Shown in pieces: positions 1,676-48,562 of a DNA stretch of 64,000 bases. Location of the stretch: assembly GCA_963693285.1 (NCBI GenBank), contig OY848917.1, positions 19,387,745-19,451,744 of the forward strand. The letters run 5' to 3'. The notes under the pieces were generated by a model. The model saw only the letters and a program-made list of their open reading frames with translations. It ran no database searches and was not told where the DNA came from. Positions within the stretch are counted from its first letter, which is position 1. Each line of letters begins with the position of its first letter. The translations under genes and the position numbers were made by a program. This stretch comes from Xestospongia muta (taxonomy: Eukaryota > Porifera > Demospongiae > Haplosclerida > Petrosiidae).

Positions 1676-1978
1676 TATTTATATATAATGTTATCTAACC
1701 TGTACAAGATTATTAGTAAATACAGGCAATAGCTCCAGTTTAAAACAGCTCAGTATGTTAGGTGCCTGGTTGATCTTGTCTATAGCTAACTCCACTGCAC
1801 TCATAGTTAACATATCACACTCATTGAGGTCTCTCTTTGAGTCTGGAGAACAAGGAAAGAACCCGAGGAAACGAAGAGGATGTTTAACATCTTCTAAAGT
1901 ACAGTTATACAGAACAGGTCCAGCAATACTGTCTCTTAAAAGGTTCAGCAGGATACAAAACAGAAAAAGCATCTTCAT
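476..1978 (-). CDS. GABA-B-like class C GPCR, gene A (exons 1-3 only; rest lies left of the window)
   Basis: N-terminal part of a Venus-flytrap receptor predicted to act at the plasma membrane. Exons: 1978-1700 (93 codons), 1102-971 (44) and 646-476 (57), all phase 0 with GT/AG borders. The start is the ATG at 1978 (MKMLFLF), aligned with the same ATG in the paralogues; an upstream in-frame TTG is not needed. Exon 1 encodes a hydrophobic signal peptide, then VLYNCT and FFPCSPDS with conserved cysteines. Exon 2 carries GVVGPYDTNVAK, the first-lobe loop typical of class C flytraps. Exon 3 carries TDPSLEDTSRYPYFYTTVPDD and HFGWRRVGIFS, equivalent to the well-known SxxLSDKxRYPYFFRTxPSD and HFGW motifs of GABA-B and mGlu receptors. 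No stops or frameshifts are seen. It differs from its paralogues in a few residues, such as FVNKMRQ for FLNKVRQ. Whether the 3' half is intact cannot be known from the window. Confidence 0.88.
1617..1671. repeat. (TA)n microsatellite in intron 1 of gene A
   Basis: About 25 TA units begin roughly 30 bp downstream of the exon 1 donor (minus strand). Genes C-F have comparable simple repeats in the same intron position, with different motifs and lengths. Confidence 0.95.
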
Positions 1979-2105
1979 AAGCCTCAACTAACCGGATATA
2001 AACCTTACCTAACTGGATGTAAATGGCTTCTGTCTACTGACACGCCCACGAGCCGTGTCAGCTCTTAACAGCCTCTCCCTCTACTCCAGTCGGTATCAAC
2101 AAGAA
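1979..2105 (-). promoter_or_regulatory. Conserved 5' leader/promoter-proximal block of gene A
   Basis: This block directly upstream of the ATG is shared with genes C, D, E and F. It holds two copies of a ~22 bp direct repeat built on AACTAACCGGATATAAACC, then a more GC-rich stretch containing GAGCCGTGTCA and CCTCTCCCTCTACTC. Its conservation and position suggest 5' UTR and core promoter, but no TATA box is obvious and the role is inferred. It is absent from gene B. Confidence 0.5.
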
Positions 2106-2833
2106 TAAATTATCGGTAATCAGTGAAAAAGACTAAGAACTGAAGTAGTTCCTAACTTGTGTTTGTTGGTACGAAAATCGCATGTGTGCAATCAAAAACG
2201 GTATTAACTGATATCAGTAAATAATAATATTCATTTTCACACACACACACATATATAATTTTATTATTATTATTATTGTTTTACAGAACAAGAATGGAAT
2301 TATAAAAATGAGATGAATGGCAAGTGATAGAAGTAAGAAGGCTATTGAACTGAGGGCCTATTAGTAAGTCCTACTAATCGACTAAGTGATGAGGTTGATT
2401 AAAGTGATTTAGTGAATTGTGATGGAAGGGAACAAAGAGAACATTTGATGCATGGGCAAACAAAATGGAATGAGCAGGGGTTAGAGGGATCAAACCTGCT
2501 GGTAAAATAGGACCAAAAGAATTTTGTTAGCTATTTCTTAATAGTGTTAATAGACAAGTCTAGATTGGGAGAACGGCATTCCACAGTCTTGGAATTCGAT
2601 TGAATAAGAATTGGTGGGAGTGATTAGTAGAAGAAATGAAATGAATCATTTTATGGGAACTAGCAGATCTAGTGTCAGAGGAGCTAAAAGAAATAAGACT
2701 ATGAATATCAATACAGCAATGAGAAACTGGAGATATCTAACCATAAAGATTATGTCATTTAGTTCCATGGAGAGCATGAGAGGCAGTATGTGAAGAGAAG
2801 TGAGGTGAGACTTGTAGTCGGAGAGGAAGTCAT

Positions 2834-3999
2834 TTAAGATAAATTTAGAAGCACGCCTTTGAATATTCTCAATTTTGGTAATGCCTTTATCAGATTGGGA
2901 CGCCAGATTTGAGAGCCATAGAGAATCTGTGATCTAATAATAGACATATAAAGAGCCCTTTTGTTAGGGATAGAGCTGGTATGATGAAATGAACGATGGA
3001 TGAGGCCAAGGGTCTTATATGCTTTGGCAGATATGTAGTCATAGTGGTTACTCCAGGACAGATCCTTGGACATTATAACACCTAGATCACGATAACATAA
3101 CATGTCAGAAATTGAATCACCATTCAAATAATAGGAAGAAGGTGGAGAATGAGAAAAGTGGAGAGCAGCACATTTAGTGGAGTTAAAGGACAAATTCCAT
3201 GCTACACACCACTTTGAGATGTAGTCAAGGTCTTGCTGAAGAAGCAAGCAGTCATTTGGGCAACTGATAGGTCTGTAACATTTTGTGTCATCAGCAAACA
3301 TAAGAATAATTGAAGAGGAGACAGTATATGGCAAGTCATTAATGTAAATGATGAATAGGATGGGACCTAAGATGCTGCCCTGAGGAACTCCAGAGGTAAC
3401 AGGAAGTTTGCCAGAATAGCTGTTGTTGATAGAAACACACTGAGAGTGAGACAACAGGTATGATTGAAAAAGTTCCCAGAGGCTACCTGTAATGCTGATG
3501 GACCAGAGTTTGAATAAAAGCTCATTATGAGGAACACTATCAAAAGCCTTTCATAGGTCAAGCTAGATACAGTCCGTTTGGGATCTCTGATCAAAGGAGT
3601 TGAAAATCGTACTCAGGAATAGAAGTAACTGGTGAATAGTGGAACGATGGAGAAAACCAAACTGAAAATTGAAATGGAGGAGAAGACATGTTCGATAATG
3701 TTGTTATAGATTAGTCTCTCCAGGAAAAGAGAGATAGGTCTATAGTTTTGGATTAGAGATTTGTCCCCCTGATTAAAAAATAGAGATGATGCAGTGTAGA
3801 TGCTATTCAGCAGGGATAGAGTGAAGATGAACACAGAGAGAGAAGAGGTGATGAATAGGACCACATAGTGAAAGAGCACAATACTTAAGAACATTAGGGC
3901 CAATACCACCAATACCCATAGCTTTGTTAGGGTCGAGGACAGCAAGGACTTCATAAACATCACTTTCTGAGAAAGTAATCTCACTAATAGAGACATCAT
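2834..3999 (-). pseudogene. LINE reverse transcriptase, frame-broken
   Basis: The main frame (3454-2834) has SGVPQGSILGPILFIIYINDLP-type motif B' followed by MFADDTK, the FADD catalytic box of non-LTR reverse transcriptases, then thumb-like sequence ending near IFKGVLLNLS. Upstream, in other frames, are NYRPISL...LERLIYNNI (3999-3613) and an intermediate piece (3594-3367), the fingers and palm lead-in. At least two frame changes separate the pieces, so no single protein spans the domain. The FADD aspartates themselves are intact. Confidence 0.85.
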
Positions 4000-4358
4000 T
4001 TACTGGAAGATCTTGCAGGGAGGGTAAAGAGTAGTTGCTTCTGGTAAAAACAGTGAAAGTATTGATTTAAAAAATTGGCTTTGTCCACGTCAGAACTTGC
4101 TTCTGAGGAGTCTGAACAAATAGTAGCTGGCAGGGAGTTATGTGTGCTTAGACAACGCATGTAGTTGAAGATTTTGTAGTTTTAGTTTGCAGCAAATGTA
4201 GAGACAAGGTGTGATTCATAGTTTAATTTTGCCTCAGCTATATCAGCTTGAAGGAGAGATTCAGATGAGGCTAGATTAGATAAAGGAGAAGGAATTGATC
4301 TACCTTTCTTACGAAGTGAATGAACTTTATTCAAATGATTTTGTATGTTTGCAGTAAA

Positions 4359-5176
4359 CTACTTGGGACATTGGTGTGCCCGGAGTTTGACCTTAGGAAC
4401 AAACAAACTCATAGCAGTTAAAAGTGATTGTTTGAGAGACATCCAACAGGTTTCAACATCATTGAGATTAAAAATGAAATTAAAATCGTAATCAAGAAGA
4501 TAAAAAGAAAGACCATCCCAGTCAGCTTTGGAATAATCATATACATATCGGGGAGATATCAGGTTAAGACTAGGTCTTGATTTGGCAAAAGAAAATGATA
4601 GTATAAAATAATCAGATTGAATACTTAGTCCTTGGTGAGGATGAATGGTGAGGTTGTTGATATAATTGTCGCATTTAGTCAAAATTAGGTCAAGTATATT
4701 CCCTTTGACATGTGTAGGGGCTGACACCAGTTGCTCCAGATTGAGATCAAATGCAAAATTGCAAATCATGGTAGATGTGGAGGAGGAGCTAGACATTGTA
4801 TCCCAGTCTATGTCTGGGAAATTGAAATCTCCTGTAATGATAATGTGATGATTTGTAGAAGAGAGAGTAGACAGATAAGATAATAAGTTCTGGAAGTAGA
4901 CTTGACTAGGGTTGGGTGAGGAGTAAACAACACAGAGGATAAGAGGTAGAGGAAGGATATTTTTGGTTTCAACAGTAATGACTTCTATGTTTGAAGGAGA
5001 GGAAAGGAGAATACATTGAATATTGTGATGTACAGCCAGAAGAACCCCATCACCCCTGGTATTCCTATCTTTACGATAAAGAATAAAGTTGTTGGGCAGA
5101 ATTTCATTGTGATATATGTAACTTGACAGCCAGGTTTCAGTGATGGCATAGATATCAAAAGGGGATGAGTAGACAA
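4359..5176 (-). pseudogene. LINE endonuclease region, frame-broken
   Basis: Between the zinc-finger ORF and the reverse transcriptase lie minus-strand fragments. One (4796-4359) contains LEQLVSAPTHVKGNILDLILT, typical of the C-terminal part of the apurinic-like endonuclease of CR1/jockey elements (the LDLILT motif), then sequence ending KLRAHQCPK. Further upstream, around 5030-5080 on the minus strand, the sequence reads like the RGDGVLLAV motif of the same domain. Assignment is by order and motif; the frames are interrupted. Confidence 0.7.
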
Positions 5177-5621
5177 ATGATTGGAATTGGAGAAGTTTGC
5201 TTACTAGGCTACGTGAATTCCAGAGACAAATTTTAAGATTGTCAGTTAGTCAGTCCTCGAAGGTACTAACCCTCGTGGAAGAAGCCACTGGATTAGAAGG
5301 AGGGGAAGACTTTGATCAAGAACTGAAGTTGGGGGAGGCGTTAGATCTTCTAAGACTGGAGCATGTTCTTCTGTGTCAGAGGAGGTCCTCAGATTAGGAA
5401 CATCACCTCCAGGCTGAGGATAGTGCTGAAACATGAGATTGATAACTTGACCATGCAACTTCTTATTGATGAAAATCCAAGAGCCTCGGATTTTTACTTC
5501 GCTTTTGCTGTGCCCTGACTGGATTAATGATTAGCGTTCCTTCAGAAGGAGAGCTTCTTGTGCTCTATCAGTAGGTGACAGATCTGGCTTGATAATGAAA
5601 GATTTGTCCAGTCTGTTTCTT

Positions 5622-6313
5622 TTAGAAAGGACCTTGGAGACGTCTGCAGCTCTGTTGAATTTTACCAGGAGTGGACGTGGACGTTCGGCTTTCTCTTGGT
5701 ATCTTCCAAGCGGGAGAGTCGCTAATTAAGTATTCATTAAAAGATCTGTCTAGTTTGGATATGATGGAGGTGACACCTTTAAGATCAACCATAGCCCTGT
5801 TGAATTTGTAAGTGCCTTTTGGGCATTCCTTTACTCCATATATTACAATGTTGAGATTTCTATCTACATCAGCAATCTTAATCAGCTTGTTGGCTGAGGT
5901 AGGATTGGTTGAGATCAGTGGGACTTGCAAAATGGGAAGCTGAGTAGTCTTGGAAATATTAGAACTGAGTTTAACTGAGATTTCAGAAAGAGAATCATTA
6001 ATGCACTGAATTTCAGACTGAACAGGAGGAGAGACATCACAGTTAATGGACGACTCAAGGGAAGAAAGTTGGCACCAAAGATCAGAGACTTCAGTCCTAA
6101 TTTTTGAGAGAATACAGATTTTATACAGAATGGGCAGACATAAGTATAGGTTGGAGCCAGAGAAGGAATGATGCTAACACATTTGCTGTGAGACCATTGA
6201 GAACAAGCCTCACACTCAACCATGTGACCGGAGTCTTCTGATGAGGAACAGACAATGAACAGAAGAGGATGGGTTTGAAGGTTAAGATTCTTATTAGCTA
6301 GTTTATCCTTCAT
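5622..6313 (-). pseudogene. LINE 5' ORF with PHD-finger-like zinc motif
   Basis: Translation from the ATG at 6313 gives CSSSEDSGHMVECEACSQWSH followed by SKC and YVCPFC. This C-x-C-H-x-C-CxxC arrangement resembles the PHD finger found in ORF1 proteins of some CR1 elements. The first cysteine pair looks incomplete. The frame closes at 5915; a second frame (5930-5622) continues with sequence of unknown role. The product would bind RNA or chromatin in an intact element; here it is a remnant. Confidence 0.6.
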
Positions 6314-6323
6314 TCTCTGTTTA

Positions 6324-7327
6324 TTTACATCAATATCTGTGTGGTATTCTTTTTCCGACTAAATCTGTCTAACTAGTATAGCTGTGATGTAAACAAGATT
6401 TAATTTTACATACCATAATATAATGATCACTTATACTAATTTAATGATTTTCCTCTAACTATATAATATTATATACAATGTATATCAACTGCACTAAGTT
6501 ATATTTCCCAGTATGTTATGACACTACTATAGTAATGGACAGTAACTTGATGTATTGGTACATTGATCAATTCATTAAAAATTTACTTGATTAATGAACT
6601 ATGGTGTCATAATTTTTACTGGCCCTTAAATTAACATTGTATTTGAGATAGAAATCTTGATCCTGTATTATATATTATGTGTAACATTAGATACATCAGT
6701 CCTTTGATACTAAACACTAAACAGATAATTAAGTAATTAATTCTACTTGAGGTTATTAAATACATTTTCTGCATACTTAAATATACATATAAACCACATT
6801 TAAATATATATAATTATATATATATATATATATGAAACAAACATTGTAACATAGTTATTCTATAATATAGAAATATTTTCAAAAAAGAATCTTAATTACT
6901 AAGACATAGAACAGCTATACTTACATACAATCTTAACTACAGTCACAAAAATTCACCTGAAAAGCAAAGCAAGAATAATCACCAAGTTTTGCCAATATAA
7001 ACTAATCACTGATGTTTTAAATGAATAAGTATGTCAAATACCTGCAAATGAATTTTAACAAACCACTGTTATATTCTTTAGAAAATCCTTAGTTTAGTAT
7101 ACTCCATCTATTGGTTTTGTTAGTAGGAAGATGTCAGTTGTGATTAGACATAGGTTGATATGGTATCCCATTGACACAACTGTCAAAATTTATAACATTT
7201 TAGAATTTAAACAAAAAAATTTCTAAACAAAATTGATAGGATTACAAAGAATAAGTCAATATACATAGTACTATATAGACTATTGTTCTGGTATATAACA
7301 ATGAGTATTATATACACCATTAACAAA
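6324..7327. other. Intergenic block between genes A and B
   Basis: No gene is seen. The first ~600 bp (6324-6960) is closely similar to 39845-40620 and 48735-49510, so it is ancestral spacer duplicated with the receptor genes. The remainder is the 3' flank of gene B, of which a diverged copy sits at 30601-30770. A short TA microsatellite lies near 6810-6832. Confidence 0.7.
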
Positions 7328-10300
7328 CTAAATATTTAATTCATCCTCTGAATTACCAGAGAGTCTAGCTAAGGCTGCTTCAATCTGGAAATAAATAACA
7401 TCATTAGAAATTTCCTAAACATAGTAGAGCTCACTTTCAATATTGATGACTTTAATTGAATTATTTCATTACATTTTTGTAAGTATATTTCCTTTGTATA
7501 TAACATTATTTGTCCACCTGATGTTGCTTTTTCAGCTTTCTTGTCTCTTACCATTTCTATAAACTAAAAGAGAAATTATGTAATATTTGTGACTTATTAT
7601 GTCATTATACCTTTGGCAAGTTCAAACCAACTAGTAAAACTGTAGCAGACAAAGCTACAGGGCATACAAGAAATAAAATGTAGTATTCAAGACTTAATGA
7701 TGAAGGAAAAGCTTTTATAATGAATGAAACCAGGAGGAGAAGAAATAATTGTATAACAGTTATCAAACTAGACTGTTCTCCCTCTCTCTTGAAGTAAGAA
7801 TTGATTTTACTGTTTTTCAGTGCCAATACTAGTATTATAATGAACAATAATACTATATATGTATCTAATGTAAGAAACCATAATTTCCATAATTGAATTG
7901 TACAATAATATTCAATCTTCCTTGAGTCCTGGACATTCTACAAGCAACAAGAAAGTAAAATATTTTAGTATTAAAACTCACTGTATCTGGACAACTGTAC
8001 TCAGTATCAAAAGATATGACATAATATGGTCTATAAATCAACTTTGTAATAATAACTATGATCACAGGAGATGTAATAATGACTATTGCCAACAACAACA
8101 TCTGGTTTGAGAGATATTTCTATTAAAAACAAAAGAAATGTAATAACTACTATTAACATCATATAAGTTGTAAATAATAACAATGTACAATTTCATCAGT
8201 CATATTCTTACCCTCCTTTTATTTCTGGAATTATGAAAAATACGATATAATCGCCAATTTTTTACCAGCAATGTAGAAAAAAACAACGTAAGAGATACAA
8301 ACCATACAGTATAAGCTAGCTGTGTGGCATAAAAGACAATTTGTAAACAATAGAAAAACATTTAGTGTGTAATTCTTACATCACAAAGAGGACCCATGGT
8401 CTTTATATAATTTCCTTTGACTCCTAAATAGTAAAGTACCACAATAAGCAAGCCATTTATAAACATCCCACAACATGACAAATTAAGAATAAGATTAAAT
8501 TTTGGAGAGGTAGCTTTGATGTGCCTGCAGATATAAATGAATTAAAATATAGCTTCATAAGTTAACTAACTTATTCTCTCTCCATATAAATATAATAATT
8601 AACAGAACAAGACTAACAATAATACCAACAATACACCATATAGCCAATATGACCACTATCACCACAAAACCAGTTGTTACAAATGAACAAGTGTAAGGGC
8701 TACCATCAGTAGGTAAATATCCACCTATATAGAATGAAAATTATGAAATAATATTAAATGTACTTGTAGTCAATGCTACATTCAGTAATTAATAGAATAA
8801 GATAGGTCTATGACTGAAAAATGAAACATACAAACAAATTTAAGTTCAAAAATAATAAAGTTTAAAGTTTCTTGAGCAAATATAACATTATATAGTTTGT
8901 TAGCTTGTGCATACCTAACATAAAGTGAGTTATTAATAATATAAATAATTAAAGAAAACATTAATAAACGTTAATGGAACATACCAAACAGTACAAAAAA
9001 ATAAAATTCATGAATTGTAGTGGTGGTAGTCTGAAACAAGCCCAAAGCATTAATGATATCCCTACTTAATAGGTAAATTATCAAGGTCATAATGCTAAAT
9101 TGTACTTGTAGCTGAATGTTGAGGCAAACTATTACTACATTTAATGTCTTTTCAAAATTTTGATTTGCTTGTTTACATATAATCAAGCCAGAAATAGCTA
9201 ATTCAACTGAAGAAATGGTTGTTCAAGAAGGAACAGGACTTTAGAACAGACCTTGTGGTAGAATGGAATACTGTCCTCCCTTTATTTCTAGATATCTGAT
9301 TTATTTCATTTTATTATCTTATTAAAATATAATTATAGATTTGTTTAAAGGACAAACATAATAAGAACAGTTCCTACATAGGAAATAATACCTAGTTAAA
9401 TAGGAAGTGCTGTATAGTTACATAGGAAGTATACTGCATGGTTATGTACATAGGAATAATATACTATATAATATATAAGAAGTACTACATAGTTATAATA
9501 GACTCTGTACGAGTACACTTTATATTTCATGATTACAACACACCTTTCCATAAAACATTACCGCAGTGACAAATATTGTAGACTATTCCAGACTCTTGTA
9601 ATAATTGGAAACTTTCCAAAATACATTCTTTCTTTCCTTTGACAAAAAATAACTTTATAATGCTAAAAATGAACAATTTACCAGTCAATTGTGTTATTAA
9701 ACCTTGACTAAAATTAACTCTGCTATCAGAATGAAGAAACATTTTCAAACCCTATAATGTAAAGAGAGTAAATTATTGTCAAATAAAACTAAATGATAAA
9801 AGTCAGACTACAAGATTCCATAAATATATATATTAAACTATAAAGACTTTAGTACTTACTGATAGTCCATTATAAGGACTAACTGAATTCTCTAGACTAT
9901 CTTGAAGAATTTGACCAAGACGTGGATGATACTGTGGATTATCAATAACTGAGAAGATGTCATCATTCAAAAATTCATTCTCAATTTTAGTAAGACTAGC
10001 ATTCCATGTCAGAGCTAAAGCAGTAGTAGCATCATATGCATTTAATAACTTAGAATGAATAATAAGAGATGAATACTCCTCCATTGTCATATTAGCTGAG
10101 ATATTTACTACCACATTATAGAATATTTCACTCAGAACATCATCTACCTCCTGTAGATATTAAATGTCAATAAAGTAAATGAACAGATAGTGAACTAACA
10201 GTTTTCATATTAATGTTAAAAGGAAAGGTATCCACAAATAGTGTAGAGTTAATAGCTTCCAATATCTGTTCATTAGTACAGTTTGAGGTAGTGTCATTCC

Positions 10301-22054: not shown

Positions 22055-22063
22055 GAATAAGTT

Positions 22064-22103
22064 ACTCTGTTGAAGTTAGCAGCACATTCGTGCAGCAGCA
22101 CAT
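22064..22103 (+). repeat. Left terminal inverted repeat of the 8.2 kb element
   Basis: Starts ACTCTGTTGAAG. It holds two copies of AGCAGCACATTC, which could be repeated protein-binding sites. It is preceded by the target duplication at 22055-22063. Confidence 0.88.
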
Positions 22104-22639
22104 TCCTCAGGTACTAGATAACCACGCCTTATTAAATATTTGTGGTTTCAAGTATTTTTGATAGGGTGGAGCTGCAGTTGTTGTTTTGCTGTATACTGAA
22201 AATTTACAGCAACAATCACATTGTGTGTAAGATAAAACATTCCATCCGTTTAGTTAATATATTATAAATGATAGCCAATTAATTCCTTTCAAAATACTTT
22301 GTTTAATAAATTGTAATAAATTACTTTTTATATTTTAAGAACAAAATTTTTAGCATGAAATTGTTAGCATGAATAATCAATAAAACTAGCACCACAGTCA
22401 CTGGCCTCCAGCAAAACTTGTCCTTAATTCCTTATACTAGATTGTTTTGCATACAAGTCTAAAAAAGTTAGGTTATTATAAATATTTACATGAATTTATT
22501 ACTGAATTGAAACAGGTAGTTTAAGTTCACCTCACAGTGATAAGTTTAACACTCTTGCATGCGAATATAAAATGATGATGGTTTGTCATATACAAAGATG
22601 ACACCATCATTCAATATGATTTCTTAATATACATCATTA

Positions 22640-22915
22640 CAACAGTTTACATTCGAAGTCATAATAACCAGCAATAAGAGGAAATGTACTAAAAAAAATG
22701 AACAAATGGTCTTATTGCTGGGCGAGGAAGAGACACCCACATCAAAACAATTGACAATACTATTTCTACTAACTTGACACACTTGAATATCATATTGTCA
22801 TTTACATCTGAAATCTCTATAGCCAGCAATAAGAGGAAATGTACTAAAAAAGAACAAATGCTCTTATTGCTGGGCGAGGAAGACACACCCACATCAAAAC
22901 AACTGACGATAGCAT
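22640..22915. repeat. Short array of the ~153 bp repeat (about 1.7 copies)
   Basis: Copies of the unit found in the main array at 24487-25303, here spaced 155 bp apart (AAGAGGAAATGTAC at 22676 and 22831). Confidence 0.85.
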
Positions 22916-24486
22916 AGGCGGGTGAGGTACGTATATTTAGGGGGGTTCACACCATAACTATGTGATGAATATGCAAACATGAATGTACCTATAAGGCAGA
23001 AACTATGTTTGATATAATCACAATCAGCGAAAATGGTCAAATTTGCTATTAGCATCAAAAATAGAGTAGTTATTAATGGATTAGGCAAACTATGTTATTA
23101 TCATACTAATTAAGGATTAAAGTAGTGAATAGATGGACTAACAAAGAATGAATTTGATTAACCAATAGCTTAGCTAAGTATGAATTATTATTGTTAATGT
23201 TGTTGTCAATTCATCAACATTTGAGTTATGTGTGTTATATGTGTATTAAGTGATGATAATAATTATGCTTAAAGTATGTTACACCTAATACTTAAAATAC
23301 AGTAATTGTAGCAGTGGAAATTAAATTTACTAATTACACTTTAAATGCAGATAGAAGCAAATATTTATTAAATGTGCTTACACAAGAACATATTACAGAT
23401 CAGTAACCAAATGCTACACTCAATACTGTCAATAGAAAAAAGAAATAAATAACAACAGAACAAAACAAAACAATTATTAAGAAATGAGTAAAACCACACT
23501 CTATATGAAATGGCCTGACTAAATATGTTTGCTCAGTGAATTGGAATCTTTTGAGTCATATTATATCTATATAATACTAGTAACAACTGTATAAAAGACA
23601 CCAAATCTGGTGTGAGAGAGAGACATAGAAAGATAGAGATGCAGAGAGAGACATGACATAATATATAACAAAACTGGGGATTACCAAATATGGCAGTGTT
23701 TACATAGATGTATTAGTAAGACACTCTCATAATGTAATAATCACTACATCTATATAATTATATTATATGTACTACATGAATTGAATATTGACAAACTATA
23801 AAAATAAACTTTCCCCTATTATTAACATATTGTGTTGTAATTGCTAAAATGATTTTACTAAAATTAACCAATAACGTATGCTAGGTATGCATACATATTA
23901 CAATCATCATAACAGCTGATTAGTGAATTAAATTATGATAATAAACAAATCAACACTATGAACAGTATGGATAGTGTATCCTCCTTCATAGATTAGAGTA
24001 TATGATGTTTACATCTAAATAAATTGAGTCTGTTTTTATATATACAATATAGAAATCAACTGAAGTTAATGTAAGGCTAAAATAATACATTAATACATTA
24101 TTATATACTAGTGTATATGTGAGAGGGAGTGTACACATGTAACAACATTACTTTGTCTATTATCATAACTACACTCATAGCAGCTATGACAGGACATTTT
24201 TCAAAACTATAGCAAAACAATCAATGACTGATGCATGTAGTGTCAGATTTCTAATGATTAACTGATTTTACACTGATTTTCCAATAAATATACAAAGGTA
24301 TTGTATCATGCAATTTGAAGAATTATAATAACACTAGTGTGATCAAGGATTTCAAATCTATGGTTATTGTGAATTCAAAGAAACCAGTATAAGATATTTT
24401 TTTCACTTTAATTTAGTTTAAAATAAAGAAAATACATAGGACAGGAAATTAGGCATGTTTAGAAAATTGATGGTGGCCTACATCAA
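22916..24486. other. Non-coding interior of the 8.2 kb element
   Basis: AT-rich sequence with no recognisable protein or RNA. A GA-rich stretch lies near 23617-23655. It could hold diverged exons that I cannot detect. Confidence 0.5.
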
Positions 24487-25303
24487 AAATGAACAAATGG
24501 TCTTATTTCTGGTCAAGGAAGATACACCCACATCAAAACAACTGACAATAGTATTTGTACTAAATTGACACACTTGAATATCATATTGTCATTTACATCT
24601 GACGTCTCCATAGCCAACAATAAGAGGAAATGTACTAAAAAATTAAGAAATGGTCTTATGGCTAGGCGATGAAGACACGCCCACATCAAAACAACTGACA
24701 ATAGTATTTGTACTAAATTGACACACTTGAATATCATATTGTCATTTACATCTGAAGTCTCCATAGCCAGCAATAAGAGGAAATGTACTAAAAAATTAAG
24801 AAATGCTTTTATTGCTGGGCAAGAAAGACACACCCACATCAAAACAACTGACGATAGTAATTGTACTAACTTGAGACACTTGAATATCATATTGTCATTT
24901 ACATCTGAAGTCTCTATAGCCAGCAATAAGAGGAAATGTACTAAAAAATGAACAAATGGTCTTATTGGTGGGCGATGAAGACACACCCACATAAAAACAA
25001 CTGACAATAGTATTTGTACTAAATTGACACACTTGAAAATCATGTTAATGTTTACATAAGAAGTCTTCATAGCCAGCAATAAGAGGAAATGTACTAAAAA
25101 ATAAACAAATGCTTTTATTGCTGGGCAAGGAAGACACACCCACAACAAAACAACTGACGATAGTATTTTTATTAACTTGACACACTTGAAGAACATATTG
25201 TCATGTACATCTGAAGTCTCAATAGCCAGCAACAAGAGGAAATGTACTAAAAAATGAACAAATGGTCTTATTGCTGGGCAAGGAAGACACACCCACATCA
25301 AAA
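24487..25303 (-). repeat. 153 bp tandem repeat array, open in one minus-strand frame
   Basis: About 5.3 copies with an exact 153 bp period: AAGAGGAAATGTACT recurs at 24622, 24775, 24928, 25081 and 25234. Since 153 is 51 codons, a minus-strand frame stays open for 274 codons (25337-24513), giving a 51-residue repeat with hydrophobic segments such as LVHFLLLLA and ILLSVVLMWVCL. Each unit also contains a 12 bp inverted repeat, CCAGCAATAAGA / TCTTATTGCTGG, around ~28 bp. The open frame may be a by-product of the period; a membrane protein is possible but unsupported. Confidence 0.85.
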
Positions 25304-25426
25304 TTATTATAATAGGTATACCAAGTGGAATTAACACCAGTCCAAAAAGGAATACTTGAACATTGAGTGCACAGTAGAAGATAACGTTGCTAATTCACAG
25401 ATGATAACAGTATTCATTTATTTCAG

Positions 25427-26465
25427 GCAATTTTATATGATTTATGTAATTTAATAGGCATTGATGACATCAACACACATAGATTTTGGTGGCCAGAATG
25501 TGTAATAGAAGGAATAGAATTACTTATTGATGCTGTTAATGTTCAATTGATGCAGGTAATGGAGATTTAAGCAATGTACAACTGTAATCTACTAAGAATG
25601 TTTGTCTAATAAACAGAAACTGTTTAACATACATACAATCACTGAGAAACAATGTCCTATCTGCAAGGAGGTCTGTTATTGTGATGATGACAGTGTTGTT
25701 TATATTAACAATTAGATATATGTTGGAGAAGAGTACACAAAAATATTATTAATTTCAGTAGTTGGACAAAAAGAAGACCGTATATCAGAATTGTGGCGGA
25801 AGAAAATATCTTGCTACTCAGATGAAACATCCCATCATTTCTAAGCTATATATTGTGGACAATAATGCCATAATAAAGCCTACAGATGCATAGCTTGCAA
25901 TGAACGTCTAATGACTGTTAGCACAAATGTTGCTTCACTACCAGATGTACAGATACTAGGCATTTCTCGAAACACATATTCAAGTAAAAAATCAAACCAG
26001 CCATTGTTGCTACAAGAGTAAGTTATAAGCAATGTAATCAATCTGACATTATATCTAATAGGACAATTACAACTGAAAATACTACCAAACATGATTACAC
26101 CTCAAGAACTTACAGATTACTTGGAATAGCTGTTAGTACTGATTACAATGAAAGTTTCCATTTAATCCTGTCGCTGCGTAGGTTCATCATGGACATCCAA
26201 CATCTGTAGATACAGGTCACTGTAAGTTATTATAAAGCTATAAGTTACCTATATTAAAACAAAAACAATAGACACAGCATGTATTAGTGAAAACACCTGG
26301 TGGAGAGTGGATTGAATATGATGACAATAACATAATTACTAACTATGATTACAACAGAAATATAGACTATATTTCTGTGAGTAAAGCTAATGAAAACAAT
26401 ACATCATTATGATTGCCTCTTAGAGAAATGTATGTCTAGCTATATACAAGTCGGATGAGTCGGAG
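25427..26465 (+). pseudogene. Ubiquitin-specific-protease-like (C19) exons, 5' part of a fused peptidase gene
   Basis: Consecutive plus-strand exons separated by ~50-90 bp introns: 25427-25555 (NLIGIDDINTHRFWWPEC), 25617-25670 (HTITEKQCPICKE, a CxxC as in USP zinc ribbons), a region to ~26010 (RCIACNERLMTVSTNVASLP then LPDVQILGISRN), then TYRLLGIAVSTDYNE, a GHY box near 26213-26223, HVLVKTPGGEWIEYDDN (from 26278) and RNVCLAIYKSDESE ending 26465. The order LLGIxVS - GHY - VKxxxGxWxEYDD matches the C-terminal half of USP catalytic domains, including the catalytic histidine box. No cysteine box is seen upstream. Stops or frame changes near 25817-25880 and 26189-26280 suggest decay, unless introns are misplaced. 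The last splice joins in phase to the Ulp1-like part. Confidence 0.55.
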
Positions 26466-26534
26466 GTTAGTATGACATTATTTCATATCACATAATACAT
26501 ATTGTAATTAATTATACTAACTAAACTTGTATAG

Positions 26535-27675
26535 ACCGTATTGAAAGTGATTGATGATTGTCCACCAATTTTATCATGGAGAGAAGTCAGTCTGTTGTTA
26601 AAATGTGCATGCTTTACTGTTACAATATATTTCTATCAGAGTCCATTAGTTGTTAATGAGGACAAGGAAATAGTAAGTGCATTGCTAGCAAAGAATTTAT
26701 TCTATATATATATGATAAACAACTGGAAAGAGATCAAAGCACCGTACAACACCTTACAGCCAGGAGTGTGGCTAACTGCAGAAGTAAACTATATATATAT
26801 ATTCATAAATTATTATATATACATACACACATATAAGTATACATATACATATACATATATAATCATTGTATATATTATATAATAGTATCTACTTGTGTAG
26901 GTAATAATGAATTACTTAAAATTGTTAGCAAAGGATGTAAGTCAAATAATTTTACATGCATGTCACAGAAATTGTTAAAACTAGAGGAATATTGCTGTTG
27001 TCGACTCCATATTCCTTTCATTATTAAAAGCAAGAGGCTTTAGTGGTGTCACAAAATATGTAAGGATTTTATAACTTTAAAATTAAACAAAAAGTAATAA
27101 ATTCTAGGGCAAAAATCTGTTAGAGAAAGACATGATCATATTTCCAGTTCATCGTCCACAACATTGGATTCTCATTGTCAGTGCCTTAATCAACATAATA
27201 TATGTTTGGGATACATTAATTACACGGGTTGTTGATGTAAATGATAAGATCATATATGAAGTTGATTCATATCATAATAGTTGGCCTCATTTAATTAATA
27301 GCATATGGTAAGGAATTATTGCATAAGATAACTTTTGAAAAAAGCAGGCTATATTTGTGTAGACTGTCAAAATTTAAACTATCCATTCGTGAGTGGAGAT
27401 ACTGTGATTCCAAAGTATGTTACACTAATTCATTTTTATAGTACTTGTACATCCATAGATGTGCAACAGTCCAACACAGAGTAATGCCTGTGATTGTGGG
27501 GTATTTGTCTGCATGGTAAGACTTCATTAACTTGTATAATGTTCATTTACGTTTACAGGCAACAAAGTGTTTCATCGAGAAGAGAAAACTAAATTTTAAA
27601 GAAGTAAATGTAAAAAAAATGCCTACTTGCATAGGAAGGTTACATAAATCACAGAGTGAAGCTCGAATAGCTTGA
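26535..27675 (+). CDS. Ulp1-like cysteine peptidase (C48), 3' part of the fused peptidase gene
   Basis: Enzyme that would cleave SUMO or another ubiquitin-like protein. Exons in consistent phase: 26535-26783, 26901-26936, 26985-27059, 27108-27307, 27348-27414, 27459-27515, 27559-27675 (TGA), with introns of 40-117 bp. Visible Ulp1 landmarks in order: GVWLTAEVIMNYLKLL (the WLxDxxIxxYLxLL entry motif), NIAVVDSIFLSLL, then catalytic H in PVHRPQHW, catalytic D in IYEVDSYH, and Q and C in TQSNACDCGVFVC. All four active-site residues are present and no stop interrupts these exons. The 5' neighbour exon (SDESE) joins in frame, suggesting one protein with a USP-like N-terminal region. A start codon for a separate Ulp1 protein is not evident; the ATG at 26541 is possible. 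Within a transposon, the peptidase may counter host modification or process transposon proteins; that role is inference. Confidence 0.78.
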
Positions 27676-27781
27676 ACAATGATCTTGTTGGAGCTAAATA
27701 ATCTTCATAAGTAAGAAAGTTAGTGATTCACACAAAATGCTTAGATAAGTCATTTCTTATTGATAACCAGTCTTGTACACT

Positions 27782-28134
27782 ATGTCTGAAAGCAACAGCG
27801 ATGATGATAATGAATTTCCACCAGTACACTTTAACTCTAATTGTGAGTTGTTAAACACAAAACATTCCATTCCAGTTTGTTCTATTTAGTAGTTAACACC
27901 AAAACAGAGATAAGTGAAACAATGCAATCAGAAATGTCAGTTATTAATGCCCACAAAATCCCACTGAATAAGAGCAATGGTTTGGCACTTAAAACAATAT
28001 TATCTATTGATGATAGTTTGAATGTGTTGTCATTGGATGACGTAAACCTCAATTTAAAAGACATAAAAGAATTAACAAACAGTGAAAATTTATTTCATCT
28101 AATGTACAGTCCATCTCAAATGTCTAATCATTAA
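27782..28134 (+). CDS. Small two-exon ORF of unknown function, 101 aa
   Basis: ATG at 27782 opens MSESNSDDDNEFPPVHF. A donor after 27842 and an acceptor before 27890 join in phase to VNTKTEISETMQ and run to a TAA at 28134. The protein is acidic at its N-terminus, with no membrane segment or recognised domain. It lies ~105 bp after the Ulp1-like stop on the same strand inside the 8.2 kb element. It could instead be the first exons of a longer gene that includes the following fragments. Confidence 0.45.
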
Positions 28135-28205
28135 TAATACACTCAAATAAATGTAGACAGTATACTTTTTTATAAATGTTTTGAAGACAATTAGTAACAA
28201 TAAAT

Positions 28206-29760
28206 TTGAAACCTTTTATAGAGTCAGTAATTGAAATAATCAAATATATCATGTTTGAACAATACTCTATTATAAAGGATTTGGGCTATGTTGAAGTCAT
28301 AAACAGTGCTGACTTACAAATTTGTATGACAAGAAAATCCATGTCAGAATTTGATAGAGTGAATCCATGTTTTTACATGAAAGTAAGTTATAATGAAGAC
28401 GTCTTGAGTATGTACCATATATACAACAGATGTCTAGTGGAGACCAACGATATGGAGAGATATTCCTGATAATCTGTCCTATTTTGGAAGAGGACATGGT
28501 ACTAGTGAGTGAAAACTAATAAAACACATGCACTATCATCACTTTATCTATTACAGTTCAGCCAACATGAGAATAAGGATGTATTGGTATATACTATTCA
28601 TGACAAAATAAGTGATAAAGCAAATGAACTCATTGAAACTTTCAGGTATATTCACATGTGATATTGCACATGATTGAGACAAACTTACAGGAAAGCAGTT
28701 GCTACGTGGAGGGCAACAGTAATGAAGGAAGCAAGAAGATATAACAATTGGAAAATTAAGGTGGTGAAGGTTGGTAAACGATTTAATTAAAAATGGGTAC
28801 CCTGACATATTTAATCATAAGGACACATGCCCCGACATGTACAGAAATGTATATATATGTAAGGTATGTGAAAAGTATAGCTAAGATTTAAAATTTACAT
28901 CAGATAATTAAATTTAACAGTATGTGGCAAGTTATCTCAGAATACCATATGATAATTTTGAGGTAGAGACTGTTTATTACATGTTGACATTATCTATAAA
29001 AATAGCTGACAGCTTATAAGAAACGGATCCTTAAAATAAGGTATGTTATCCATGAAATAATGTATATTAATACATTATCTGTTAATTCCTAGCTGTTCAG
29101 TAGCAGAAGTGCATATGGAAAATGTTCCTCCAGATTACGTAGAAACCATTAAAACTTATGTCAACTCAGGTACATTATAAACTACATGATTACTGAATGA
29201 TTGTAATTCCAATCTTTGTTAACATTAGGCTGTGATAGAGACAATGAAGTTATTTATATAATGGATCTATGTTTATGATATTTAGAAGAAGATTTAGAGG
29301 ACAATGACATACTACTTCCATCATTTACATCTAAACCAGTAATAGATAAGGATGGCATCTTTTGTACTAAACATAAATGGGGCAAGGAGTTTTACCTTAA
29401 AAGTTATCCAAATTTTAGATGTGACAAATCAGATCAGTATGTTATTCATATATGTGAATACTATATCTAATACTCTATCGTTGTATGCTGTCACTGATAT
29501 CAGTGACAGCATATTTACAAGAAGGTTCATTAGAACAACAATCAAAGCAAATGAAGTATGTTTACAAGTATCATTTAAAATTAAAAAAATCATGTGTTTA
29601 TGATATACAAACAGCACACAATCAGACAACTATTAAATGGAGAATGTTGCAGTGATTTTGGTAAAGTGAAGTATTTAGATGATGGCTGGCCAATTGACCT
29701 TGATGATATGGTGAGAATATCAGTCTAACAAACAATTATTTCATACAAGTTTCATGTAGC
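28206..29760 (+). pseudogene. Unrecognised multi-exon coding fragments in the 8.2 kb element
   Basis: A series of protein-like segments with plausible short introns: VIEIIKYIMFEQYSII (from ~28222), SSGDQRYGEIFLIICPILEEDM (28431-28497), NKDVLVYTIHDKISDKANE (from ~28560), ATWRATVMKEARRYNNWKIK (to ~28758), NGYPDIFNHKDTCPDMY (~28788), SYLRIPYDNFEVETVYYML (~28930), AEVHMENVPPDYVETIKTYV (~29100), DILLPSFTSKPVIDKDG (~29310) and LDDGWPIDLDDM (~29680). In-frame stops occur, for example after KIADSL near 29018. No family is recognised. This is where a transposase might be sought. Confidence 0.4.
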
Positions 29761-30259
29761 TAATGGAAATTTATTACTATTTACTTGCTTTAGTGAGTGA
29801 TTGTCTAAAAAAACCTGCATTCTATTTAAGTGATTTTATGAAATCAATCATCTGGCCAGAGGTAATTCCAGATAATAATTACAAGACATAACCTCATTGA
29901 ATTATACTTATAGGTTCTCACTTTGTTAATAATGGAGAAATTTCACTTTTCATACGAAATGGCTGTTAAGTGCCTTCTACAAAGACAACTTCCCTCTATA
30001 TAAACATAAAATTCTTAATTTTAGATTAAGCAACTTATTGAAAAATAGTTCATTTGTAAATTATATACTTCTAAATCTTCTTACGTGTTCTAACAAAAAC
30101 ACTGACCTTCAGACGTCTTTTCAAAATAACACAAGTTTCCTTGTTGCAGTGTCATGTGGTGACGTGACATTAATTAGGCTTCTGCAGCAGCACATTCAAA
30201 TGAGGAATGTACATTATGTGCAGCAACACATACCGCGGTTTTAAGATCCGCCTACAAAT
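29761..30259. other. Right subterminal part of the 8.2 kb element
   Basis: No gene recognised; one 68-codon open frame (30038-30244) lacks support. Extra copies of GCAGCACATTC-like motifs occur near 30183-30230, close to the terminal repeat, as expected of subterminal binding sites. Confidence 0.5.
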
Positions 30260-30299
30260 ATGTGCTGCTGTACGAATGTGCTGCTAACTTCAACAGAGT
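30260..30299 (-). repeat. Right terminal inverted repeat of the 8.2 kb element
   Basis: The reverse complement starts ACTCTGTTGAAG and matches the left repeat over 40 bp with one difference (GTACAG for GTGCAG). The target duplication follows at 30300-30308. Confidence 0.88.
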
Positions 30300-30600
30300 G
30301 AATAAGTTATCGGTAATTAGTGAAAAGGACTAAGAAGTATTTCCTAACTTGTGTGTGTTAGTATGAAAATAGCATGTGTGCAATCAAAATCTTGTGTAAT
30401 GGAATTCACAAGCATCAATAAAATAATTTCACACACTTATATATAATTTCATATTTTCTTTTTCGACAAAATCTATGGAACTAGTACAACTGTGATGTAA
30501 ACAAGCCCGGCGTTTACACGTCACAACACATTGTATGCAGTATGAAATATCTATTAAAGTAGTATCACTGCTGAACATTAATATATTAGAAAGACTCTTA
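30300..30600. other. Displaced upstream spacer of gene C
   Basis: Continues the sequence interrupted at 22063 and resembles 2105-2260 joined to 6324-6390, and 39690-40020. No coding sequence. Confidence 0.7.
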
Positions 30601-39185: not shown

Positions 39186-39537
39186 CGTACATACATGCAA
39201 ACATACATACATATATATATATATATTATAATTATATATGTACATAATGTTATCTAACCTGTGTAAGATCATTAGTGAATACAGACAATAGTTCCAGTTT
39301 AAAACAGCTCAGTATATTAGGATCCTGGTTGATCTTGTCTATAGCTAACTCCACTGCACTTATAGTTAACATATCACACTCATTGAGATCTCTGCTTGAG
39401 TCTGGAGAACAAGGAAAGAACCCGAGGAAGCGAAGAGGATGTTTAACATCTTCTGAAGTACAGTTATACAGAACAGGTCCAGGAACACCGTTTTTTAAAA
39501 GACTCAGCAGTATACACAACAACAAATGCATCTTCAT
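33032..39537 (-). CDS. GABA-B-like class C GPCR, gene D (complete, 16 exons, 815 aa)
   Basis: Exons: 39537-39259, 38604-38473, 38121-37951, 36646-36539, 36494-36429, 36286-36104, 36054-35764, 35695-35629, 35582-35478, 35194-35041, 34789-34645, 34590-34483, 34414-34277, 33674-33345, 33292-33182, 33091-33032 (TGA). Starts MKMHLLLC with a signal peptide. Ectodomain and membrane domain follow gene C closely (exon 4 of 108 nt, exon 8 of 67 nt, exon 15 of 111 nt; TM7 ends ALYVPK). In the last exon a small net deletion relative to gene C (AACAAAACTTTAC for AACAAAAACATTAC) shifts the frame, so the tail ends at HQ, 17 residues earlier than in C. The receptor should still be functional, as the lost part lies beyond the coiled coil. 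Intron 3 carries a partly deleted palindromic element. Confidence 0.9.
36990..37520. repeat. Deleted foldback element in intron 3 of gene D
   Basis: The left arm is as in gene E (through GACCACAAAGGTTAATTGTAC and CCAGGTGGTTCTTGGTGTAAC). It passes at ~37322 straight into the outer part of the right arm (ATTGGTATTTACATAAAAAGAATAATTGG). The inner half of the right arm, present in E, is missing, leaving an asymmetric palindrome. Confidence 0.7.
39060..39240. repeat. (AC)n/(TA)n microsatellite in intron 1 of gene D
   Basis: An uninterrupted AC run of about 33 units (39105-39170) lies between TA-rich runs, ending about 20 bp before the exon 1 donor. The paralogous position in gene E has only about 16 AC units. 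Confidence 0.95.
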
Positions 39538-39680
39538 AAGATTCAACTAACCGGATATTAACCTTAACTAACTGGATATAAACGTTAACTAACAGGATGC
39601 AAATGGCTTCTGCTATTGATCCGCCCCCGAGCTGTGTCACCTTTATACAGCCTCTCCCTCTACTCGAGTCAGTATCAAGA
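39538..39680 (-). promoter_or_regulatory. Conserved leader block of gene D
   Basis: Three rather than two copies of the AACTAACCGGATATTAACC-type repeat precede the ATG, followed by CCCCCGAGCTGTGTCA and CCTCTCCCTCTACTC. It probably holds the 5' UTR and core promoter; the role is inferred from position and conservation. Confidence 0.5.
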
Positions 39681-41345
39681 AGGATAGGTTACCAGTAACC
39701 ATGGGAAAAGACAAAGAAGTATTCCCCAACTTGTGTGTGTTGGTATGAAAATTGCATATGTGCAATCAAAAATGGTGTTCACTTGTACTGACATCAGTAA
39801 ATAATAATAAAATTTATTTTCCCACACACACTCACACACATATATAATTTTACATCAGTATCTGTGGGGTATTCTTTTTCCGACTAAATCTGTCTAACTA
39901 GTATAGCTGTGATGTAAACAAGCCTGAAGCTTAAATGTCACATCACATTGTATACAGTATGAAGTATCTGATAAAGTGGTATCACTGCAGAACATTTATT
40001 ATATTAGTAAGGGTCTTTGTGATTGGAAAATTTTACCGTTCATAAAATTTAATTTTGCATTCTGTAGTATAATGTCACTTATACTAATTTTATGATTTTC
40101 CTCTAACTATATAATACTATATATAATGTATATCATGCAACTGCACTAAGTTATATTTCCCAGTATGTTATAACATTACAATAGTAATGGACAGTAACTT
40201 GATATATTTGTACATTGACCAATTCTGTACAAATTACTTGATTAATTAGTTATATCACCATTATTTTTACTGGCCCTTAAATTAACATTGTATTTGAGAT
40301 AGAAATTTTGATCCTGCATTATATATTATGTGTAACATTAGATACATCAGTCCTTTGATCTTATATAAGGTTCATTTGACAGTGCTTATTAATACTAAAT
40401 ACTAAATAGATAATTATGTAATTAACTTTACTTGTGGTCAATTAAGTACATTTTCTCTATACTTCAACTATATATATAAACTACAGCCAAATATATATGT
40501 ATAAAACAAACTTTGAAACGTAGTTATTCTATAATAGAGAAATATTTTTAAAACATAATCTTAATTACTAAGACATAGAACAGCTATACTTACATACAAT
40601 CTTAGCTACATTCACACTGAACAGAAATTCACTTAATCCGTGGTTAATTTGACTTACAGAGAGGAGCTTTTAAACAATGGCACTAAATTAATAGATATAT
40701 TAAAGCAAAATCATAAATAGTGATTTTGTTCTAATAAATAAAATTCATGAACAATTTTATAATGATTTTCCAACAAATTGACATGGATATGGCTCAATGT
40801 AAACTGAATATTTAGAATTTTCCCTGTATGTGGTGAAACATGCCTTAAAGGTTCCCCAATACCTATATTTTTAAGATTATAATTCCAGTTCATCCATCAA
40901 CTGATATTATAGAGTTCATCAATAGACATCATAGACATTGTGATTTGATTGAAGGGAGACAAACCGTTGATGGAATATAAAACATATTATGAAATTTCTG
41001 GACTATTATTACAGTAGGTGGAGGGGGTGGGTTTGTCATATCTATATCTGAGCTTAATAATTCCAAGTACAAATGTATTTTTGTACACAAAGACCAAACC
41101 ATTTACATAAAAAAAGTAATCCATATAAGTCAAAGATAAAGAAATAAATGTAACATGTGAAACGTATGTTACTATTGTTACTGGGATTGAAGCCCAAACG
41201 TTTTTGAGATAGTAATAATGTGAGGCTTAAATTATATAACATTTTGAATTGTGTAATTTTCAAGGTTCTGTGTAGTATAATAGGAAATAATATTGCATAT
41301 ATGCAAAATACACATCCTCCTGTCATCAGTGATCAAACTAAATAA
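39681..41345. other. Intergenic block between genes D and E
   Basis: Nearly identical to 48562-50233 between E and F (offset ~8,888 bp). Two short minus-strand ORFs (40893-40711, 41326-41054) are identical in both copies but match nothing recognisable and simply reflect the recent duplication. No gene is called. Confidence 0.7.
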
Positions 41346-48069: not shown

Positions 48070-48417
48070 CATACATGCAAACATACATACATATATATAT
48101 ATATATTATAATTATATATATACATAATGTTATCTAACCTGTGTAAGATCATTAGTGAATACAGACAATAGTTCCAGTTTAAAACAGCTCAGTATATTGG
48201 GATCCTGGTTGATCTTGTCTATAGCTAACTCCACTGCACTTATAGTTAACATATCACACTCATTGAGATCTCTGCTTGAGTCTGGAGAACAAGGAAAGAA
48301 TCCGAGGAAGCGAAGAGGATGTTTAACATCTTCTGAAGTACAGTTATACAGAACAGGTCCAGGAACACCGTTTTTTAAAAGACTCAGCAGTATACACAAC
48401 AACAAATGCATCTTCAT
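41346..48417 (-). CDS. GABA-B-like class C GPCR, gene E (complete, 16 exons, 831 aa; chimeric)
   Basis: Exons: 48417-48139, 47529-47398, 47020-46850, 45254-45147, 45102-45037, 44893-44711, 44661-44371, 44292-44223, 44178-44074, 42818-42665, 42610-42466, 42406-42299, 42204-42067, 42022-41693, 41646-41518, 41432-41346 (TAA). Starts MKMHLLLC; exon 1 protein is identical to that of D. The 5' half is D-type (exon 4 of 108 nt, IGESHARTVFCV, long intron 3 with palindrome). From intron 7 on it is B/F-type (exon 8 of 70 nt with QGLITQLT, exon 9 with RNSSHCCN, TM7 ending LNLPK, exon 15 of 129 nt with MVRDKKAEE-like start). The reading frame is fully open. It is best explained as the product of unequal crossing-over that joined a D-like front to an F-like back; it probably combines one ligand-binding type with the other's signalling domain. 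Confidence 0.9.
43690..44010. repeat. Degenerate minisatellite in intron 9 of gene E
   Basis: Repeated CATAGGAAGTATA and CTGCATGGTTACATA motifs alternate with ATGAATTATACCACA. The same array is in F at 52520-52830. Just upstream, a ~260 bp direct duplication (43190-43250 versus 43455-43510, sharing TTTATTACGTCATCAATATA) is found in E but not in F. Confidence 0.75.
45595..46400. repeat. Palindromic foldback element in intron 3 of gene E
   Basis: Arms of about 390 bp meet near 45907. Close to the centre, GGTGGTTCTTGGTGTAAC is mirrored by GTTACACCAAGAATCACC, and ATGATGACATCA by TGATGTCATCAT. Outer pairs include GACCACAAAGGTTA with TAACCTTTGTGGTC and GTACCATTTTTTCTTT with AAAAGAATAATTGGTAC. No ORF. 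This is the most complete copy among the three introns. Confidence 0.75.
47935..48122. repeat. (AC)n/(TA)n microsatellite in intron 1 of gene E
   Basis: Mixed TA, about 16 AC units (47985-48016), then TACA and TATA runs. It is paralogous to 39060-39240 but with a shorter AC tract and an expanded second TA tract. Confidence 0.95.
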
Positions 48418-48562
48418 AAGGTTCAACTAACCGGATATTAACCTTAACTAACTGGATATAAACGTTAACTAACAGGATGCAAATGGCTTCTGCCATTGAC
48501 CTGCCCCCGAGCCGTGTCACCTTTAACTATAACAGCCTCTCCCTCTACTCGAGTCAGTATCA
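48418..48562 (-). promoter_or_regulatory. Conserved leader block of gene E
   Basis: Three CTAACCGGATAT-type direct repeats, then CCCCGAGCCGTGTCA and CCTCTCCCTCTACTC, almost identical to the block of gene D. Confidence 0.5.

Follow-up and report, generated by a model that had tools for sequence, protein, structure and literature searches.

The window analysed here, 64,000 nucleotides of the sponge Xestospongia muta (assembly GCA_963693285.1, contig OY848917.1, positions 19,387,745 to 19,451,744), contains an 8.2-kb element bounded by terminal inverted repeats (TIRs), which is very probably a non-autonomous, internally deleted member of a family of cut-and-paste DNA transposons that is young and resembles Rehavkus in build. 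Longer copies elsewhere in the genome supply what this copy has lost, namely a transposase gene and the start of a second gene whose product is modelled as a ubiquitin-specific protease (USP, a deubiquitinase) fused to a Ulp1-type SUMO protease. An earlier note on this DNA, made from the letters of the window alone, had described an element with a USP-like/Ulp1-like peptidase gene, and its interpretation as a whole is partly supported by the analysis below.

The window copy and its target site

The inverted ends of 40 bp with one mismatch and the perfect 9-bp target-site duplication (TSD) on which the earlier note had relied were both recovered (Table 1): the two TIRs are 98% complementary, and GAATAAGTT stands on either side of the element. 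When both flanks were joined, with one copy of the duplication retained, and used as a query, they matched the empty site that had been proposed upstream as well as two weaker unfilled paralogous sites, at 39471-39771 and 48351-48656 (about 77.5% against the joined flanks), so that the element was inserted into one of several repeated host units. The motif AGCAGCACA has seven exact matches in the window, five of which lie at the ends of the element (22078 and 22094 on the plus strand, 30261 and 30277 on the minus strand, and the subterminal site of Table 1); 0.28 matches are expected by chance in the whole window, and the maximum in 100 shuffles was 3. A host gene of the usual kind that happened to lie between chance inverted repeats would likewise be expected to have an interior of small exons and introns, but this explanation of the interval is already refuted by the exact 9-bp TSD, the empty sites and the dispersed copies with different flanks, and it retains practically no probability. 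Outside the element, the minus strand at 2834-6358 of the window holds what is left of a non-LTR retrotransposon, with RVT_1 (E 3.5e-20), an endonuclease (E 1.5e-10) and an ORF with a PHD domain (E 1.4e-8).

Table 1. Features of the element and its target site (window coordinates; E2-E5 are longer copies elsewhere in the genome)
Feature	Position	Strand	Remarks
Mobile element, window copy	22064-30299		8.2 kb
Left target-site duplication, GAATAAGTT	22055..22063		
Left TIR	22064..22103	+	40 nt
5' segment common to longer copies E2-E5	22064..22915	+	92% identity
1.57-kb segment	22916..24485	+	not in E2-E5; whole or partial in 12 other end loci
Minisatellite	24485..25303	+	153-bp unit, 5.4 copies
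Deletion junction	25303..25304	+	array fused to intron preceding peptidase exon 3
USP (deubiquitinase) domain remnant, exons 3-11	25316..26465	+	
Ulp1 (Peptidase_C48) domain, exons 12-19	26535..27610	+	
Open Ulp1 catalytic exons	27108-27307; 27459-27515		His, Asp; Gln, Cys
Third conserved coding region	27783..30000	+	small exons
Subterminal AGCAGCACA motif	30186..30194	+	
Right TIR	30260..30299	-	40 nt
Right target-site duplication, GAATAAGTT	30300..30308		
Unfilled paralogous target site	1912..2197	+	89.5% over 286 columns vs joined flanks

Dispersed copies

The genome searched comprises 158 Mb in 28 contigs and is that of an animal, as shown by nine wnt-family matches that all exceed the curated cut-off, wnt genes being markers of animals. 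In it, the element's first 100 nt have 51 matches (40 of 109 candidates scored), ten of them identical throughout the 100 nt with the window copy included, and the last 120 nt also have 51 (40 of 71 candidates scored). The peptidase DNA at 26535-27311 matches at least 21 places, its own in the window among them, with an identity of at least 88% along 400 nt or more, which leaves at least 20 other copies (40 of 291 candidates scored, matches counted by hand); separately, five diverged peptidase copies (77-84%) lie within 113 kb at C1:19757387-19870024, about 0.3 Mb from the window.

For the reading of target duplications, 30 left and 30 right matches having a locus were used and ends were paired at distances of 2-30 kb, which gave 14 pairs. 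Twelve were readable at both ends and seven of these have an exact 9-bp TSD, each different from the others (GAATAAGTT, GAATAATTA, ATAGTAAAT, CACACAATG, CACCCAACT, TATACTTTG and TAGCGTTGC), while the flanks of the other five readable pairs share no match of four or more bases. Three of these five lie on contig C8 (among them the longer copies E2 and E3) and have a common right flank, one (C1:3479702-3488338) has the same right flank as a copy at C1:3557098, and the fifth is C1:15838123-15848820. A further pair, C2:3105265-3115148, counted outside the seven, shows TTCATTGCA, read by eye, next to a right end whose terminal bases are missing. The earlier note had suggested searching for further copies; these exist with coinciding ends, in favour of an element, and the interval is confirmed as a mobile element with dispersed copies.

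Two arrangements were observed alongside these counts. On contig C8, at about 1.37-2.66 Mb, several left ends have the common flank CTTCTCTA and three right ends the common flank GCAGCACCATCTATAAAG, so that a host segment holding the element seems to have been multiplied. At C1:23529407-23556938, a copy of the family is nested inside another copy, with a separate 9-bp duplication for each.

Longer copies and the transposase

The longer copies measure 11.6-18.8 kb. Four of them, E2-E5, match the window copy at 92% over the first 850 nt and at 95-96% over the last 5 kb, and between these common ends they hold the array of 153-bp units, of which E3 has 52 and E5 no fewer than 45, together with an extra stretch of 2.3-5.2 kb, missing from the window copy, in which transposase sequence and peptidase exons 1 and 2 are found. 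Between E3 and E4 this stretch matches in two blocks, of 99.2% and 99.6% identity, which points to recent activity. In the best-preserved copies the order is transposase, a 19-exon peptidase gene and the third conserved region, although damage to the transposase is also seen: E4 lacks residues 214-332, and E2 lacks the first part and has a stop. The earlier statement that there was no recognisable transposase is therefore correct for the deleted window copy and incorrect for the family.

The transposase comprises a PHD finger (exon alone, E 3.9e-8; spliced model, E 5.3e-6), a WRKY-like domain and a putative IS256-like RNase H core, the PHD exon being modelled as spliced to the transposase exon. 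Among 72 rows of transposase homologues, the Mutator-like element (MULE) profile PF10551 has no match at E <= 0.01, and RT_RNaseH_2 and DUF3772, in one row each, are the sole Pfam matches. Elsewhere in the genome PF10551 has 150 matches (258 candidates), and comparison by eye with the list of 68 transposase matches shows no overlap; several of the 150 have long open frames, and the genome is rich in other MULEs. The link to KDZ elements that the earlier note had raised is not upheld, hmmscan giving no match to PF18758 in the transposase pieces or in the 72 rows; a genome-wide KDZ search was also empty, with controls equally silent, and is uninformative. Foldseek returned no match to the transposase in the PDB at E <= 0.001. 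Its sole BFVD match at that threshold was O92526 (E 2e-6), an uncharacterised protein of Bracoviriform inaniti that may represent a transposon in the virus; 23 pattern matches on viral contigs include no relative. With 71 homologues found, the analysis brings to light a transposase family that Pfam does not annotate.

These results bear on whether the element should be classed as a strict MULE, of the Phantom type or of the plant type with Ulp1, instead of as Rehavkus-like. The 9-bp TSD and the IS256-like core fold would suit such an assignment, as would the Ulp1 cargo reported for Mutator elements of hydra and of lancelet, and also a figure legend on an alignment of Mutator transposases in their Ulp1 and PHD domains (PMC2836005, which, like the other papers cited here, is drawn on in excerpt). 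The absence of PF10551 from all 72 homologues, despite its frequency elsewhere in the genome, speaks against it, as does the combination of PHD finger and minisatellite that is given for Rehavkus, although a table of the same paper also credits aphid Phantoms with a minisatellite (PMC6446971). A strict MULE is accordingly judged unlikely, and the MULE affinity proposed from the window holds in the broad sense of TSD and probable core fold while finding no counterpart in the Pfam MULE profile.

A modelled USP-Ulp1 peptidase gene

The gene downstream of the transposase has 19 small exons and was modelled as a protein of 561 aa; copies E5, E4 and E3 keep it open, and E2 and the window copy have it disrupted. 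The start ATG of exon 1 was chosen by hand, and exons 4, 6, 8 and 18, whose initial boundaries gave stops, were redrawn with a second family (see below) as an additional guide; since the model was picked for GT-AG introns throughout and for three open copies, it is fitted and not independent of these features. In the spliced model Pfam recognises a UCH domain (PF00443; residues 63-293, E 3.2e-16, profile positions 5-235 of 254) and, in the E5 version, Peptidase_C48 (residues 384-546, E 6.8e-15) with the catalytic H, D, Q and C present, so that in family 1, to which the window copy belongs, the USP and Ulp1 domains are modelled as fused in one protein. The USP boxes of E5, E4 and E3 read NLCWINSVLQLL (Cys box) and GHYTALVK...WIEYDDN (His box), and in E3 the glycine following the Ulp1 catalytic Cys is replaced. 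The solved structures nearest to the Ulp1 part are SENP2 and SENP1, of which SENP2 was aligned. A search with the 561-aa protein found none among 7777 candidates at E <= 0.001, a search in which intron-split relatives could be missed.

At the deletion junction, the window copy has lost the transposase gene and peptidase exons 1-2, including the USP Cys box. A junction at about 25303 recurs in two of seven other peptidase loci that were cut out for comparison, L064 (C1:3482707) and L066 (C8:1382993), neither of which lies within a TSD-flanked copy; because the three share it, the deletion would predate the insertion in the window, and a transposase acting in trans may be inferred. In the USP remnant, exons 3 and 4 each lack one base, the donor after exon 6 is lost and exon 10 has four additional bases; in the Ulp1 part, the acceptor of exon 13 is lost and exon 19 is altered (window positions of both remnants were counted by hand). 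Judged by these lesions, the protease gene of the window copy is a pseudogene in which the Ulp1 catalytic exons are still open. The Ulp1-like exons with catalytic H, D, Q and C that had been reported from the window are accordingly present (27108-27515) in a broken gene, and the USP-like cargo is borne out by the remnant here and by the UCH domain of the longer copies.

Two further parts of the interior complete the comparison. An insertion unique to the window copy was considered for 22916-24485 and rejected, since 12 other end loci have the segment, which is therefore a structural variant of the family; two of the twelve, L005 and L030, precede transposase remnants. The interval 28206-29760, singled out by the earlier note for profile searches, is not peptidase sequence and belongs to the third conserved coding region, which has no Pfam match among the pieces scanned.

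A second family and the origin of the peptidases

A second family is represented by L078 (C2:6527500-6537499), which has a PHD finger and a transposase 49-51% identical to that of family 1. Its USP part comprises the Cys box and the zinc and His-box exons (E 4e-11 and 4e-13), and its Ulp1 part lies on the minus strand (E 2e-18) with PVHLPQHWILIV and GTDCGVF and, by our reading, one frameshift; the possibility that this family has no Ulp1 was considered and rejected on the strength of that minus-strand sequence. Pieces of the third region are 32-64% identical between the window and the second-family loci L077 and L078, the L078 counterpart lying at 7600-9548 and being followed by a 142-bp minisatellite with a unit unlike that of family 1. 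L077 equals L078 without 4251-8195, a deletion to which it has lost the two peptidases along with the beginning of the third region, and its array has at least 27 units. Array, peptidases and the habit of internal deletion thus all recur in the second family.

The linkage of USP and transposase extends further. With 68 transposase matches merged into 34 loci, and with three of 26 Cys-box and one of 23 PHD matches dropped as second pieces of listed loci, 15 of the 34 loci are followed on the same strand, after 1.0-1.5 kb, by a USP Cys-box exon and 14 of 34 are closely preceded by a PHD exon, all counts being lower bounds; at eight of the 23 Cys-box loci no transposase match lies nearby. Four of the 15 linked loci are diverged, with Cys boxes 44-47% identical, which indicates that the association of USP and transposase is older than family 1.

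The peptidases might alternatively be host genes captured by a MULE-like element and carried as chance passengers without use. MULEs are prone to acquiring fragments of host genes (PMC6446971), and two observations weigh on the side of capture: nonsynonymous (dN) and synonymous (dS) substitution rates are about equal among the three open family-1 copies, within-family dN/dS being uninformative here, and the window copy, L064 and L066 occupy different places although they lack the USP Cys box. Capture as passengers is nevertheless judged quite improbable, because both peptidases appear again in a family whose transposase is only about 50% identical, because the USP exon keeps its distance and strand at the 15 transposase loci, the four diverged ones included, and because the peptidase gene is open in three of the four longer copies examined. 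A more far-reaching reading, a Rehavkus-like lineage in which a deubiquitinase and a SUMO protease are paired, and in family 1 fused, as conserved functional enzymes of transposition or anti-silencing, is put forward tentatively, at slightly less than an even chance.

Proposed mechanism and implications

What the sequence demonstrates is that the element was inserted with a 9-bp duplication, that deleted derivatives exist and that the genes are linked. The transposase, a PHD-DDE protein supplied by other copies, would bind the TIRs through the repeated AGCAGCACA, cut the element out and reinsert it with a 9-bp stagger, and the window copy would have been moved in trans by this enzyme. The PHD finger may read chromatin, and the proteases would most likely strip ubiquitin and SUMO from the transposase, or from host silencing or repair factors, at the site of transposition. 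A helper role of the proteases for the element appears rather probable. Alternatively, they could protect the element from SUMO-dependent silencing. Bao and colleagues proposed a link to repair (PMC2836005).

Proteases of the ubiquitin and SUMO systems occur in unrelated eukaryotic transposons, for which the excerpted text of PMC2836005 suggests only the link to repair. With both proteases in one young family, near-identical open copies, derivatives without the Cys box and a rearranged second family, their role becomes experimentally testable.

Comparison with known transposons

In plants, Mutator elements bearing Ulp1 go by the name Kaonashi. We know of no DNA transposon shown to carry a deubiquitinase and a SUMO protease together, and the USP-Ulp1 pair was not found among the titles and opening abstract lines of the open-licence papers searched; Ulp1 is not mentioned in the excerpts of PMC13359780 and PMC3169594. 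Ulp1-bearing Mutator elements are described from hydra, lancelet, Arabidopsis, maize, rice and melon (PMC2836005), and the present element resembles them in combining a Ulp1 peptidase with a Mutator-type transposon; it differs in its USP partner, of which that excerpt makes no mention, and in a transposase without the Pfam MULE profile. As regards Ulp1, the suggestion of a new metazoan family is weakened by the hydra and lancelet elements already in print.

Ginger1 elements share with the element a Ulp1 or OTU domain and, in one family, a PHD finger, but according to the same excerpt they have a Gypsy-integrase-like transposase and bear OTU or Ulp1, never both, with the protease inside the transposase (PMC2836005). 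Deubiquitinase-type domains also occur on transposons in the Transposase_11-C19 protein of Trichomonas vaginalis, in which a C19 domain is joined to a transposase (PMC2836005), and in the VTD deubiquitinases of Helitrons (PMC9741609), although both belong to other transposon classes and VTD to another protease family as well.

Compared with published descriptions, the element resembles Rehavkus in its anatomy, and it is called Rehavkus-like here, not Rehavkus. Rehavkus is characterised by a 9-bp TSD, a TIR of 26-400 bp, a PHD finger and a minisatellite (PMC6446971), and here the TSD has 9 bp (seven of 12 pairs), the 40-nt TIR falls inside that range, the transposase has a PHD finger and the internal minisatellite has units of 153 and 142 bp, as against the 164-bp repeat in the termini of the 9.5-kb Rehavkus-1_TC of the flour beetle (PMC10218199). 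The position of the array is an exception to this fit, in that the Rehavkus minisatellite stands just before the 3' TIR and that of family 1 on the 5' side, while the second-family array is on the 3' side, past the last coding exon. The USP, the Ulp1 and the third coding region also set the sponge element apart from Rehavkus, whose excerpted descriptions mention no peptidase. Very few Rehavkus elements are known, with hosts given as arthropods and annelids only (PMC6446971), and if the placement is true, the host range of Rehavkus-like elements would be widened.

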